The notes below the pieces were generated by a model, which searched no databases, was not told where the DNA came from, and worked only from the letters and a program-made list of their open reading frames with translations. From NCBI GenBank assembly GCA_902795135.1, contig CADBJW010000008.1:31710-95709 (forward strand): a DNA stretch of 64,000 nucleotides. Direction: 5' to 3'. Every line of letters begins with the position of its first letter. Positions within the stretch are counted from its first letter, which is position 1. Below are positions 26,162 to 31,339 of this stretch, piece after piece. This stretch comes from an uncultured Eubacteriales bacterium (GTDB taxonomy: Bacteria; Bacillota; Clostridia; Peptostreptococcales; Anaerovoracaceae). The position numbers were made by a program, and so were the translations under genes.

Positions 26162-27448
26162 ATGATACCACTTTCGACAAAGATGAGACCGAGTAAACTC
26201 ACGGATTTTGTGGGGCAGAAACACTTCATGTACGAAGGGTCTCTTTTTTATAATTCCATTATCAATAAGACCTTTGAATCGGCCATATTCTTCGGACCGA
26301 GCGGAACGGGCAAAACGACCCTTGCCAGGATCATCGCCGGGGAACTGGATGGCAGTTTCGTTGAAATCAACGCATCGACGACAGGTACCAAGGAGCTTAA
26401 AGAAATTCTCAAGAATGCCGCGGACCGGTTTCAGGGGCTTTTGCAGGAAACCACCGTGCTCTACGTAGATGAGGTGCATCGGTGGAACAAGTTGCAGCAG
26501 GATTCGCTTCTCAAGGCCATCGAAGAGGGCGTGATCAAGTTTATCGGGAGCACGACAGAGAATCCGTATTTTTCCATCAACAACGCGATTCTTAGTCGAG
26601 TCCGGAACATTTACGAGTTCAAGCGGCTCGATTACCGGGATATTCTGACGATCCTCAAGCGCACGATCAAGGATCCAGACAAAGGCTTCGGCGGCCTGAA
26701 TGTGGTCTACGAGGAGGACGCTCTTATCGTGCTGGCCAAAATGGCAGGCGGCGATTGCCGGGTGGCTTTGGACGCACTCGGCTTCATTGTTGATAATCTC
26801 CGTGAAGGCCAGCCCATTGACAAAGCCATCGTCTCAGAGGCCATGCAGAAACAGACGACCTTTTATGATAAGGAAGAAGATAAATACAATTTGCTGTCGG
26901 CCTTGCAGAAATCCGTGCGTGGATCCGATCCGGATGCGGCCATTCACTATTTAGCCCGTCTCATCGACGGAGGCGCAGACGAGATGATGATTGGCAGGAG
27001 ATTGATGGTCATGGCCAGCGAAGATATCGGGATGGCCTATCCAAATGCAATCAGCATTGTGACGTCCTGCGTGCAGGCGGCGCAAATGATCGGGTTCCCG
27101 GAGGCGCAGATTCCGCTGGCGCACGCGGTGATACTCATGGCATCCTGTCCGAAGTCCAACGCGGCCAACGAGGCTCTGAATGCGGCCCTGTCGGATATCC
27201 ATTCCCGAAAGATCGACGATGTGCCGGCCCATCTCATGGACTCCCATTACGGAGGCGCCTCGAAACTGGGTCGGGGACAGGGATATAAATACCCACACGC
27301 CTATGGCGGATACGTGACCCAGCAGTATCTGCCGGATGACTTATACCGGGAAGGCGTTCGTTACTATGAGCCGACTTCCAACGGCAGCGAGGCAGCCTTC
27401 AAAAAACATCTGGAATCTCTGCGGGAAATCGACAAGAAGTCAAAATAG
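26162..27448 (+). CDS. rarA: Replication-associated recombination protein A (RarA/MgsA)
   Basis: An AAA+ clamp-loader-like ATPase of 428 residues that acts at stalled replication forks. Seen: MRPSKLTDFVGQKH, Walker A FGPSGTGKTTLARIIA, Walker B LYVDEVHRWNKLQQD, and sensor/arginine-finger ENPYFSINNAILSR. AMQKQTTFYDKEEDKYNLLSALQKSVRGSD and YKYPHAYGGYV are diagnostic of RarA C-terminal halves. Full length. AGGAGG precedes the ATG. It is 24 bases upstream of the ispH-rpsA fusion and probably shares its first promoter. Confidence 0.95.
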   Translation: MIPLSTKMRPSKLTDFVGQKHFMYEGSLFYNSIINKTFESAIFFGPSGTGKTTLARIIAGELDGSFVEINASTTGTKELKEILKNAADRFQGLLQETTVLYVDEVHRWNKLQQDSLLKAIEEGVIKFIGSTTENPYFSINNAILSRVRNIYEFKRLDYRDILTILKRTIKDPDKGFGGLNVVYEEDALIVLAKMAGGDCRVALDALGFIVDNLREGQPIDKAIVSEAMQKQTTFYDKEEDKYNLLSALQKSVRGSDPDAAIHYLARLIDGGADEMMIGRRLMVMASEDIGMAYPNAISIVTSCVQAAQMIGFPEAQIPLAHAVILMASCPKSNAANEALNAALSDIHSRKIDDVPAHLMDSHYGGASKLGRGQGYKYPHAYGGYVTQQYLPDDLYREGVRYYEPTSNGSEAAFKKHLESLREIDKKSK

Positions 27449-27472
27449 GATAGATAGTAAATAGAATCGACC

Positions 27473-29590
27473 ATGGAACACTTTAATACAGGAAACAATC
27501 GAATCAAAGTTGCGGAAAGCGCCGGCTTTTGCTTTGGCGTTAAACGTGCCGTTGGTATGGCCGAAGAGGTTGCCGCAAAAGCACCAGAAGGCAGGACCGT
27601 CTATACCATGGGACCGCTGATCCACAATCAAACGGCCATTGAAGAATTGGAACAAAAAAACATCTACCAAATCGATCATCTGCAGCAGGCGGAGCCGGGG
27701 AGCACGGTCATCATCCGTTCCCATGGCGCGGGCCGCGCCTTTTATGAGCAGGCAAAAGCTTATGGCGTGGAACTGGTCGATGCCACCTGTCCCTTCGTGG
27801 AAAAGATCCACAAGCTGGTTGCGGAAACGGACCGGCAGGTCCTGATCGTTGGAAACCGCGACCACCCGGAAGTGCAGGGCATCGCTGGCTGGTGCAAAGG
27901 GGAGGCGCTGATCGCCGATAGCAAAGAAGCAGTCCAAAAGCTTTTGCAGGAACGGGACGCGTCCGGTCATGAGCAGGAGAGGCGGGCCTTGTTTGTGGTG
28001 GCGCAGACCACGATTCGGCAGGCCATGCTGGAGGAAGTGCTCACGGCGATTGACGGTTATGGGAAGACCCATGCTCCCTATGAAGTGGAGTTGCACAACA
28101 CGATCTGCAGTGCGACTTCAAAACGACAGGAAGAATGCAGAGCACTGGCGGAAAAGTGCGATGCCATGGTCGTCATAGGGGACCAACATAGTTCGAACAG
28201 CAGAAAGCTTTTTGAAATTGCAAAAAAATATTGTAACAGGTGCTTTTTTGTTGAAAAAACAACTGATTTACCATTGCAAGAGATTCTGAATTGTAATAAA
28301 ATAGGAGTAGCGACTGGTGCGTCAACGCCAGACAGCACAATTAAGGAGGTTATTGCCAACATGAGTGATGCTACACTTGAAAACAAAGAATTAACGATGG
28401 ATGATCTGATGGAGGATATCGACAAGTCTCTCAGATTACCAAGAAGTGGCGAAATTGTTACCGGTAAAGTTCACCAGGTAAACGAAAACGAAGTTATTGT
28501 AAATTTGGGTTGTAAGAAAGATGGTATTCTGCCAATCGGCGAAGTAAGTCTTGAGGAAGGCCAGACACTGGCTGACGTTTTCAAGGCTGATGACGAAGTT
28601 CAGGCTAAAGTCATCAAGACCGATGATGATGGCGGACTTTTGCTTTCCAAGAAAAAGTTAGAAATCAGTGCCAACTGGAATGATATCGTAAAGGCATATG
28701 AAGATAAAACGAATCTGGAAGTTAAGGTTACGAGAACAGTAAATGGCGGAGTTATTGCTGAATACAAAGAAGTATCAGGATTCATTCCTCTCTCACAGCT
28801 TTCAGACCACTACGTTGAAAATGCAGAAGAATTCGTTGGACAGACAATGGAAGTTAAGGTTTCCAGAGTTGACCAGAGAAGAAACAGAGCTGTATTCTCA
28901 CACAAGATGTTCCTTGCAGAAGAAAAAGAAAAGCTGATCGCTGAAATTTGGGAAAAGCTCAACGAAGGCGATGTCGTAGAAGGAACGGTTATGAGATTTA
29001 CGGATTATGGTGCATTTGTTGATATCGGCGGTATCGACGGATTGCTTCATATTTCAGAGATTTCATGGGGCAAGCTGAAGCACCCACAGGAAGTTCTGAG
29101 CATTGGACAGAAGATCAACGTTAAGGTTCTCTCCATGAACGCCGAAAAGGGCAAGATTTCACTGGGTCTGAAGCAGAACACACCGGAACCTTGGACTGTC
29201 ATCGACGAAAAGTACGAAGTTGGACAGGTTATCGAAGGAAAGGTTGTTCAGATCAAGGAATACGGCGCTTTCGTAGAACTGGAACCTGGTCTTGATGGAC
29301 TGGTACATATTTCAGAAGTGGCACACAAGAGAGTTGGAAATATCAATGACGAGCTCGAAGTTGGCCAGATTGTAAACGCTAAGATTCTGGAGATTGACAA
29401 AGACAGAAGAAGAATCAGCTTGAGCATCCGGGAAACACTCGATGCTCCTGGCGCTGAGGAAGCTCCAGCAGAAGAAGCACCGGCTGCAGAAGAACCTGCA
29501 GAGGAGGCTCCTGTTGCAGAAGCACCTGTAGAAGAAGCTCCAGCGGAAGAAGCTCCAGCAGAAGAAGCAGCGGAAGAACAGGCTGAATAA
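27473..29590 (+). CDS. ispH-rpsA: Bifunctional HMBPP reductase (IspH) / 30S ribosomal protein S1 fusion
   Basis: A protein of 705 residues. Residues 1 to about 295 are IspH, which makes IPP and DMAPP from HMBPP. The three cluster cysteines are in AGFCFGVKRAV, DATCPFVEKIHKL and NTICSATSKRQEE, and the domain ends with GVATGASTPDSTIKEVI. Residue 297 on is ribosomal protein S1 with four S1 RNA-binding repeats (e.g. GEIVTGKVHQVNENEVIV, VVEGTVMRFTDYGAFVDIGG, VIEGKVVQIKEYGAFVELEPG) and a tail of Ala-Glu-Pro repeats. Such IspH-S1 fusions are known in Clostridia. Codon use changes at the junction: Arg is CGN in the IspH part and AGA in the S1 part. An internal promoter and an internal start at Met297 (28361) could give free S1; see those entries. 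Confidence 0.95.
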   Translation: MEHFNTGNNRIKVAESAGFCFGVKRAVGMAEEVAAKAPEGRTVYTMGPLIHNQTAIEELEQKNIYQIDHLQQAEPGSTVIIRSHGAGRAFYEQAKAYGVELVDATCPFVEKIHKLVAETDRQVLIVGNRDHPEVQGIAGWCKGEALIADSKEAVQKLLQERDASGHEQERRALFVVAQTTIRQAMLEEVLTAIDGYGKTHAPYEVELHNTICSATSKRQEECRALAEKCDAMVVIGDQHSSNSRKLFEIAKKYCNRCFFVEKTTDLPLQEILNCNKIGVATGASTPDSTIKEVIANMSDATLENKELTMDDLMEDIDKSLRLPRSGEIVTGKVHQVNENEVIVNLGCKKDGILPIGEVSLEEGQTLADVFKADDEVQAKVIKTDDDGGLLLSKKKLEISANWNDIVKAYEDKTNLEVKVTRTVNGGVIAEYKEVSGFIPLSQLSDHYVENAEEFVGQTMEVKVSRVDQRRNRAVFSHKMFLAEEKEKLIAEIWEKLNEGDVVEGTVMRFTDYGAFVDIGGIDGLLHISEISWGKLKHPQEVLSIGQKINVKVLSMNAEKGKISLGLKQNTPEPWTVIDEKYEVGQVIEGKVVQIKEYGAFVELEPGLDGLVHISEVAHKRVGNINDELEVGQIVNAKILEIDKDRRRISLSIRETLDAPGAEEAPAEEAPAAEEPAEEAPVAEAPVEEAPAEEAPAEEAAEEQAE
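28274..28302 (+). promoter_or_regulatory. Candidate internal promoter for S1
   Basis: Inside the ispH coding region, TTGCAA (28274-28279), a 17-base spacer and TAAAAT (28297-28302), 58 bases before the internal ATG at 28361. The same TTGCAA-17 arrangement precedes rpsU. Confidence 0.5.
28343..28363 (+). promoter_or_regulatory. rpsA: Internal Shine-Dalgarno and ATG for free ribosomal protein S1
   Basis: AAGGAGGT at 28343-28350 and an in-frame ATG at 28361-28363 lie exactly between the IspH and S1 domains. Initiation here would give a 409-residue S1, the normal length for a Gram-positive S1. Confidence 0.6.
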
Positions 29591-29602
29591 GAGATAAAAA
29601 AA

Positions 29603-29649
29603 TAAGCTGTTGTGTTGACTGAGGAACTCAGTTGATACAGCAGCTTTTT
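29603..29649 (+). terminator. Terminator after ispH-rpsA
   Basis: AAGCTG...CAGCTT outer stem with ACTGAG-GAA-CTCAGT inner stem, followed by five Ts. It also faces the end of recN. Confidence 0.85.
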
Positions 29650-29695
29650 GTAGTTTAAAGAATCGGTTCTGTTTACGCTTCGATTTCTTACGCTT

Positions 29696-31339
29696 TTATT
29701 TCGTGGAAGCTTCAATCAATTCCCGGGCAGATGCCAGGGTGGTCTCGGTAATATTGTCACCGCCAAGAAGACGGGCGATTTCCTGAATTTTTTCTTCGCT
29801 TCCGAGAGGATCTACGGAGGTGTAGGTCATCTTTCCATCGGATTCCTTATGAATCCGGTAGTGATGGGCTCCATAAGCGGCAATCTGCGGCAGGTGGGTG
29901 ATGCAGATAATCTGGTGCTTCTGCGCGATTTCCCGGAGTTTGCGGCCTACCACACTGGCAGCAATACCGCTGATCCCGCTATCAATTTCATCAAAAATCA
30001 TCGTCGGAATCGCATCGTAATCGCCGATGATTTTTTTGAATGCGAGCATGATTCTCGACATTTCCCCGCCGGACGCGATTTTACTCAAAGGCTTCAGCGG
30101 TTCTCCCACATTCGTCTTAATCAAAAATTCCACAACATCCGTGCCTTCCGGGGTGAAGGTCGGTTTCTCCTGACCAGCCTCACGAAGGGACTGAAAGTCG
30201 ATAGCAAATTCAGCATCACTGAAATTCAACTGCAAAAGCTGTTCTGCGATGAGGGTCTGCAGTTCGGCGGCAGACGCCTTACGAATATCGCTAAGCTTAT
30301 TGCATGCTCCGGTGAGGGCAATCTCCATTTTTTTGATTTCAGATTGCAGCCGGGCGATTTCTTCATCGGCGTTGTCGATATTCTGAAGGGCAGATTCCAG
30401 CTCCTCGGCATAGGAGAGCAAGCCATCGATATCACGATTGTGCTTTCTCTTAAGATGATTGATCAATTCGATTCGTTCGATGGCCTGATCCAGTTCCTCC
30501 GGAGAGAAAACCGTCCGGTCTCGTAAGTCACGGATTTCGGAGCAGGCATCCTGAAATTCATAATAAAGGTCATTGATCCGTCCGCTGAGCTCATTTAATT
30601 CCGACGTGTAGGATCCAGTTTCCGCGAGCATATCGCTGACCTGCTTCATGGCAGACAGGAGACTGTATTCGCTTTCCGAGGAAATCTGATAGGCTCCGGC
30701 AAGATTTTCGTAAATCTTCTCACTGTTCTGGAGCAGGGCAATCTGTTCCTCGAGGGCGTCATCTTCGCCGGAGGTAAGGCTGGCATCCCGAATCTCCTGA
30801 AGCTCAAAGGCCATAAAATCGCGCTGTCGCTGATGTTCTGAAATCTGGGAGCGAAGATCGGAGAGCTGTTTTCTAAGAGAGGTGTATTCATCATATAACA
30901 TCCGGACGGAAGCCTTTGCAGGATCGATGGATTCCTTGTGATAAAGGTCGATTAGTTTGATATGGTTTTCGGGATCCAGCAAAGACTGATGATCGTACTG
31001 CCCATGGATGTCGGCGATTTGTTTGCACAGACTGCTAAGGGCGCTTAGGGTGACGATGTTGTCGTTGATGCGGCAGGTATTTCTGCCGGTTGCGGATATT
31101 TCACGGGTAATGATGTATTCCTGACCATCGTAATCAGCAACCATCTGGACGGTTGCTTTATCTTCCCCTGAGCGCACAAAAGCAGTGTCTGCCCGGCTTC
31201 CCAAAGCCAGGCTCACTGCTTCGATTACTATGGATTTACCGGCACCTGTTTCACCGGTAATGATATTAAGGCCATCATGAAACTCGATTTCGACGTTTTC
31301 GATGATGGCAAAATTACGTATACTGATGTGTCTGATCAT
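29696..31339 (-). CDS. recN: DNA repair protein RecN
   Basis: An SMC-like ATPase of 547 residues acting early in double-strand-break repair. Seen: MIRHISIRNFAIIENVEIEF, Walker A GETGAGKSIVIEAVSLALG, a long coiled-coil region (about 150-370, rich in Leu and charged residues), the ABC signature KIASGGEMSRIMLAFK, Walker B TMIFDEIDSGISG, and ICITHLPQIAAYGAHHY. Full length. It starts 5 bases after argR, a pairing conserved across Gram-positive bacteria, so both come from the argR promoter. Confidence 0.95.
   Translation of the reverse strand: MIRHISIRNFAIIENVEIEFHDGLNIITGETGAGKSIVIEAVSLALGSRADTAFVRSGEDKATVQMVADYDGQEYIITREISATGRNTCRINDNIVTLSALSSLCKQIADIHGQYDHQSLLDPENHIKLIDLYHKESIDPAKASVRMLYDEYTSLRKQLSDLRSQISEHQRQRDFMAFELQEIRDASLTSGEDDALEEQIALLQNSEKIYENLAGAYQISSESEYSLLSAMKQVSDMLAETGSYTSELNELSGRINDLYYEFQDACSEIRDLRDRTVFSPEELDQAIERIELINHLKRKHNRDIDGLLSYAEELESALQNIDNADEEIARLQSEIKKMEIALTGACNKLSDIRKASAAELQTLIAEQLLQLNFSDAEFAIDFQSLREAGQEKPTFTPEGTDVVEFLIKTNVGEPLKPLSKIASGGEMSRIMLAFKKIIGDYDAIPTMIFDEIDSGISGIAASVVGRKLREIAQKHQIICITHLPQIAAYGAHHYRIHKESDGKMTYTSVDPLGSEEKIQEIARLLGGDNITETTLASARELIEASTK

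Follow-up and report, generated by a model that had tools for sequence, protein, structure and literature searches.

An IspH-S1 fusion gene that very probably also yields free ribosomal protein S1 from an internal start

The fusion of IspH with ribosomal protein S1 has been described as a 'Rosetta stone' protein, IspH-RPS1 (NF000907/PRK00087; Rao et al. 2015, PMC4746011). That report demonstrates HMBPP reductase activity and an Fe-S cluster for the C. thermocellum protein, and produces tagged full-length and truncated IspH-RPS1 in E. coli. It leaves the meaning of the fusion open. It treats IspH-RPS1 as one fused polypeptide, from which the two-product reading proposed below differs, and native free S1 lies outside its question; by term search, 'internal', 'promoter', 'Shine' and 'start codon' are absent from the main text (PMC4746011). 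IspH-RPS1 thus far passes as one bifunctional protein in most sampled genomes, and arguments about what it means have relied solely on the fusion. A search of the open-licence literature found no earlier report of an internal start in an IspH-S1 gene.

Some bacterial genes carry an in-frame internal start that yields a C-terminal isoform, infB and clpB of E. coli among them. The IspH-S1 gene resembles these in having an internal Shine-Dalgarno (SD) sequence and ATG in one frame, which would give two nested products. It differs in what the products would be: the shorter would be an entire ribosomal protein, to which the longer adds an unrelated metabolic enzyme. Unlike the infB/clpB type, the arrangement recurs in samples of the order, the class and the phylum. 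Separate ispH-rpsA pairs of the same order are a second point of comparison. They have a like gene order and sometimes overlap, and they differ in that the second gene lies in another frame or behind an intervening stop, with the rpsA SD at another position.

The gene studied here lies on the + strand of the window, the whole 64,000-nt stretch of DNA that was analysed. Its full-length frame (27473..29590) encodes 705 aa and is like the published IspH-RPS1, known mostly from anaerobic Firmicutes and mentioned for Fusobacteria as well, in gene and domain order (PMC4746011). The whole ORF scores 718.1 bits with NF000907 (IspH-RPS1 fusion), above the curated cut-off of 624; PF02401 (LytB/IspH) matches residues 11-297, and PF00575 follows in four stretches. 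The IspH part (27473..28360, 296 aa) is matched by TIGR00216 and PF02401. The 409-codon part from the internal ATG (28361..29590) has four S1 domains, recognised by profile matches and conservation, and passes the S1 equivalog NF005208 alone (409.5 bits, cut-off 368). The S1 C-terminal tail (29447-29587) is a low-complexity acidic repeat, EEAPAEEAPA... Downstream of the gene stands a terminator-like hairpin (29604..29646, + strand) of 20 pairs, the most among eight found, where 6.5 are expected by chance. The gene is the sole ispH and the sole full-length S1 of its assembly (2.08 Mb), the two other S1 matches covering 78-79 residues of other long frames; a second copy of either could have been missed, because the assembly is 91% complete and the L2 (PF00181) and L10 (PF00466) families have no match in it. 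Other ispH or rps1 genes were not found in the published IspH-RPS1 genomes either (PMC4746011).

We propose that this gene is very probably a two-product gene, giving IspH-S1 and, from an internal start, free S1, with free S1 expected to be the major product. Translation from 27473 would produce the 705-aa IspH-S1. Translation from the internal SD and ATG (28343/28361) would produce a free 409-aa S1. Two templates could serve the latter, the long mRNA and a short mRNA from an internal promoter (28274-28302). The short mRNA would begin near 28309, and a hairpin (28314-28331) would closely precede its SD. With free S1 as the major product, S1 would be made at the level of ribosomes and IspH, always tied to S1, at the level of an enzyme. 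The evidence is that of sequence, conservation and codon bias; from it we infer the transcription start, the initiation, the relative amounts and the role of the hairpin. If most S1 is free, the question shifts to the role of the rarer IspH-S1 on ribosomes and to the reason that IspH always comes with S1 attached. The gene for an essential ribosomal protein would then be nested in frame inside another gene, and the proposal makes a simple prediction that can be tested.

Fused and unfused ispH loci were collected from the order, the class and other classes of the phylum, together with the 80 records nearest the window. The latter include Anaerovorax, Emergencia, Gallibacter and Mogibacterium, which we take to be one family, Anaerovoracaceae. 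The order set holds 170 ispH ORFs (duplicates included), of which 87 are fused, 56 are in tandem with rpsA and 27 have no S1 nearby. The fusion exceeds the cut-off in 124 of 147 genomes class-wide and in 106 of 119 phylum-wide; 90 loci from the former (L173-202, L283-342) and 50 from the latter (L344-393) were examined. Fused ORFs shorter than 560 aa, which end at contig ends or have a frame break (e.g. L096, L170, L171), were excluded before clustering. Near-duplicates were cut by 4-mer containment, at >0.60 for the sets of 171 and 219 genes and at >0.35 for those of 113 and 156.

The initial annotation had placed an SD and an in-frame ATG where the S1 part begins. Both are present in the window gene, and comparative tests argue that they are not there by chance. 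The SD, AAGGAGGT, occupies 28343..28350 (+ strand) within the last ispH codons (K291 E292 V293), and the junction ATG of S1 follows at 28361-28363, in frame with ispH. The SD energy is -11.4 kcal/mol at the internal S1 start and +0.2, equivalent to no detectable SD, at the start of ispH itself, given anti-SD letters that we assumed from general knowledge and did not read from this genome. The annotation had also held that absence of the SD from relatives would count against an internal start. The SD is kept in the order-, class- and phylum-wide sets alike. A start codon with a strong SD (-8 kcal/mol or lower) stands at the junction in 215 of 219 dereplicated fused genes from the three samples: 81 of 85 in the order and family, 86 of 86 in the class and 48 of 48 in other classes. 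The other four genes (L034, L136, L151, L275) have a weaker SD only, from -6.3 to -7.7. Among the 219 genes, 200 have their ATG at the same codon; in 10 it comes one codon sooner, and 2 have GTG. The remaining seven all belong to one family, f2; three of them have TTG at that codon and four an ATG that lies 10-11 codons downstream, and they show other SD-like sequences ahead of the later ATG. Outside f2, few genes depart from the junction pattern xxG GAG GYN ... ATG. GGAGG and ATG are 11 nt apart in 155 of 171 genes, a spacing that is usable and at the long end; most of the window's own ORFs have shorter spacings, 6-7 nt in 8 of 12 counted.

The peptide at the junction is conserved in fused genes, as it would be if an IIKEVI helix and the Met served IspH or the linker and the codon choice were incidental. 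Synonymous positions speak strongly against this reading. When each column was scored by the departure of its third bases from each gene's own codon use, the two SD codons ranked first and second of 633 columns in the 171 order and class genes (z 19.6 and 17.0), a test that ranks sites among related sequences uncorrected for phylogeny. The third base of E292 is G in 165 of 171 genes against 52.1 expected, and that of K291 in 162 of 170 against 61.2. Residue 291 itself is variable (K, E, R, Q, T, G or M), yet its third base stays G in 210 of the 218 genes, out of 219, that were tabulated. Among the top constrained rows listed, 15 of 22 are residues 258-298. Unfused IspH proteins, moreover, manage without either element: GGAGG occurs at the homologous ispH codons in 107 of 113 fused genes and in 1 of 55 unfused relatives, and Met at the homologous site in 103 of 113 and 1 of 55. 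We consider it extremely improbable that protein constraint accounts for the site.

The junction ATG also stands out when set against the other in-frame ATGs of the gene. The best junction ATG, taken within codons +8 to +29 of the motif, outscores all other in-frame ATGs tested for an SD (codon 40 onward, junction zone excluded) in 171 of 171 ORFs, with a median of -11.4 against -2.4 for the 1094 other ATGs. The internal SD beats that of the best ispH start in 193 of the 207 genes, out of 219, in which the two were compared. An SD-like sequence might instead act as a ribosome pause at the domain boundary, letting IspH fold before S1 with no internal start. The site does lie exactly at that boundary and is found in fused genes and hardly in unfused ones. 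A pause, however, requires no start codon, yet the genes retain one, be it an ATG at constant spacing, an ATG a codon before that or a GTG; nor would a pause explain the promoter and the split in codon bias described below. Unfused relatives argue in the same direction, in that their rpsA uses an SD and ATG at or inside the end of ispH: in 11 of 36 separate-gene relatives (one, L129, perhaps mispicked), the rpsA start with the best SD falls within ispH or on its stop codon. A pause is accordingly an improbable account of the site. RNA structure around the ATG is low compared with other windows (median -5.6 vs -9.1); we discarded this as evidence, the low structure being set by the peptide and codon content (mean z 0.15 vs synonymous shuffles).

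As an alternative to an active start, the initial annotation had suggested that the junction is a relic, formed when two genes lost the stop between them, with promoter, SD and ATG left over from their separate state. Adjoining separate ispH and rpsA genes do occur, in the 56 of 170 order-set ORFs noted above. In a relic, synonymous sites would be expected to decay, but here no others in the gene are under stronger constraint, and the site persists throughout the phylum samples; loss of a stop fails to explain this continuing conservation. On a midpoint-rooted IspH tree with 168 sequences and several weakly supported branches, parsimony reconstructs a fused root and 8 changes of state, and the fused state looks old. 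A mere relic is very hard to reconcile with these observations, and we give it almost no weight. Continued use of the internal start, as in the two-product reading, fits them better.

A sigma-70/A-type promoter had been proposed inside ispH, and its elements were found: TTGCAA at 28274-28279, a 17-nt spacer and TAAAAT at 28297-28302 (28274..28302, + strand). The match is 9 of 12 to a promoter matrix that we took from general knowledge and did not derive from this genome, and the spacer is within the range of 16-18. From this geometry, the S1-only transcript is predicted to start at 28309 (+ strand), about 7 nt past the -10 box. By scan alone, promoters in this region are at chance level: the two strands of 7 kb hold 11 such sites, and shuffled sequence gives 8.0 +/- 2.1. 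It is the positional comparison among relatives that makes this one credible. A 9-of-12 promoter lies at exactly the window position in 26 of the 32 nearest dereplicated fused genes (the window included, and L006 and L101 being of another family). In the same genes such a promoter occurs at 19 of 20505 positions of the remaining ispH and at 2 of 3424 other positions of the AT-rich stretch. At that position it is found in 4 of 124 far fused genes and 0 of 55 unfused ones; some far genes (L294, L331) have good matches nearby at another position.

Codon choice within the promoter points the same way. In the 32 nearest genes, L268 is TTG in all 32 (4.9 expected, z 14.0) and I277, whose codon ends the -10 box, is ATA in 30 (9.5 expected, z 8.7). 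L266 is TTA in 28 (4.6 expected) and N275 is AAT in 28 (16.4 expected). A codon-shuffle test for the promoter reaches p<0.05 in 16 of 113 fused genes, 1 of 16 ispH genes without S1 and 1 of 35 tandem genes, and 13 of the 16 significant promoters share one position. In 47 of 113, 3 of 16 and 9 of 35 genes, respectively, no other ispH window scores as high as the best promoter. The codon-shuffle test is modest for each gene because the IspH peptide itself encodes most of the motif.

The promoter also goes with a change of neighbourhood. Directly upstream of the window gene is rarA/mgsA (26162..27448, + strand), in place of the cmk or plsC neighbours of most other fused genes examined. In the 63 genes whose flanks were long enough for this comparison, rarA precedes 10 of 13 near genes, and the promoter is present in 10 of 13, with 9 showing both; cmk or plsC precedes 49 of 50 far genes, and the promoter is present in 1 of 50. 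This association is a correlation and not a test, since the independent events are few. It suggests that in the window lineage the gene has moved out of its former operon, with S1 now supplied from the internal promoter. A different possibility is that the internal translation start is real and the promoter unused, both products coming from one long mRNA. Most fused genes have no promoter at that position, so the ribosome-binding site can work without one, as this alternative would have it. Against it, the exact position is kept in most of the nearest genes, the TTG and ATA codons depart strongly from expectation, and the promoter goes with the place behind rarA. We therefore regard an unused promoter as unlikely, though the most serious of the alternatives, and retain the promoter as a probable second source of free S1.

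Codon use differs between the two halves of the gene. The initial annotation had reported a shift from CGN to AGA arginines at the junction itself. The shift stands, with AGA for 12 of 13 arginines in the S1 part and for 2 of 14 in ispH codons 1-255; its exact point does not, as the composition changes about 40 codons before the ATG. Codons 256-296 of ispH, which cover the promoter and leader stretch, have a GC of 0.39 against 0.536 before them and a single Arg codon. The effective number of codons (Nc) is 39.5 for S1 and 52.2 for ispH 1-255. As ribosomal references we used the rpsB ORF (PF00318; Nc 35.9) and its neighbour, read as tsf by eye (Nc 40.6), because the L2 and L10 families had no match in the assembly. 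In 99 of 113 fused genes the stronger bias is that of the S1 half, and the median difference is 6.4. For separate ispH and rpsA pairs these values are 31 of 35 and 7.2, and the two distributions are alike (p 0.85). The persistence of the split suggests that the two halves are not always made together, and it may be the trace of different amounts of the two products. The proposal that free S1 is produced in larger amounts than IspH-S1 thus draws support from the conserved SD, from a codon bias that is like that of ribosomal proteins in the S1 part only, and from an ispH start that lacks an SD.

The putative S1 leader would open with a small hairpin, CTGGTG-CGTCAA-CGCCAG (28314..28331, + strand), seen by folding and by covariation of pairs at synonymous sites. 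Of its six pairs, the IspH peptide dictates four, and two (N1-N6 and N2-N5) join synonymous third positions. In 112 fused genes, N1-N6 is paired in 70% against 40% from shuffles and N2-N5 in 62% against 49%; one of six off-register pairs exceeds the shuffles, weakly (N2-N4, p 0.01). One of the 113 and one of the 156 genes do not show the GAS.P pattern and were left out of these counts. In unfused genes the two pairs form in 49% (45% expected, p 0.35) and 55% (45% expected, p 0.06). The other-class set repeats the excess (56 vs 39%, p 0.011; 58 vs 43%, p 0.025), and all 155 genes together give 66 vs 39% and 61 vs 44%, with no off-register excess. We place weight on the off-register pairs because the shuffles take no account of relatedness. 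In the 31 genes nearest the window, both free pairs form in 94%; this is above the shuffles for N1-N6 (75% expected) and no significant excess for N2-N5 (88% expected, p 0.15). Covariation therefore supports the hairpin to a limited degree, with two free pairs of which N2-N5 is insignificant near the window. An Rfam scan of 27300-29800 gave three matches at E<=1, all far below their gathering scores. Ser284 in the hairpin loop (28322-28324) is TCG in 21 of the 32 nearest genes, against 3.2 expected, and its codon ends in G in 65 of 171 genes, against 16.3 expected.

Small stem-loops at the 5' end stabilise some bacterial mRNAs. The S1 leader hairpin is like these in its size, its place at a predicted 5' end and its position upstream of the SD; it is unlike them in lying within coding sequence, at a transcript start that is itself a prediction. 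Its position suggests a 5'-end stabiliser or a translational control element. A more speculative extension is that, across the phylum, the end of ispH hides a full S1 leader of hairpin, SD and ATG, joined by the promoter in the window lineage. Such a leader would determine how much free S1 is made relative to ribosome-tethered IspH-S1, perhaps by feedback of S1 on the hairpin and SD, and IspH-S1 would be a rare, regulated, ribosome-bound form and not the working S1. We offer this tentatively, as a possibility with the odds against it.

Several loci outside the main comparison were also noted. In family f5 of the same order (L071, L088, L093, L094, L126, L164), ispH is in frame with an IAIDGPAGAG stretch and not with S1. 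These ORFs are 499-520 aa long, and a separate S1 match starts 134-200 nt past their stop. The partner looks like cytidylate kinase, in which case the cmk-ispH-rpsA neighbourhood has given rise to a second kind of IspH fusion. In family f2, the rpsA start (SD GAAGGYGAGG) lies inside ispH and is out of frame or fused, depending on the species (L135, L143, L153 and L086 vs L108, L111 and L081), as if overlap and fusion interconvert around one start site. One locus, L096 (genome G046), has its IspH-S1 frame broken in the S1 part into overlapping frames of 398 and 303 aa, by a frameshift or an assembly error. A genome of the same genus, G025, carries two full IspH-S1 fusion genes on separate contigs (L012 on C60, L172 on C55), which may reflect contamination of the assembly.
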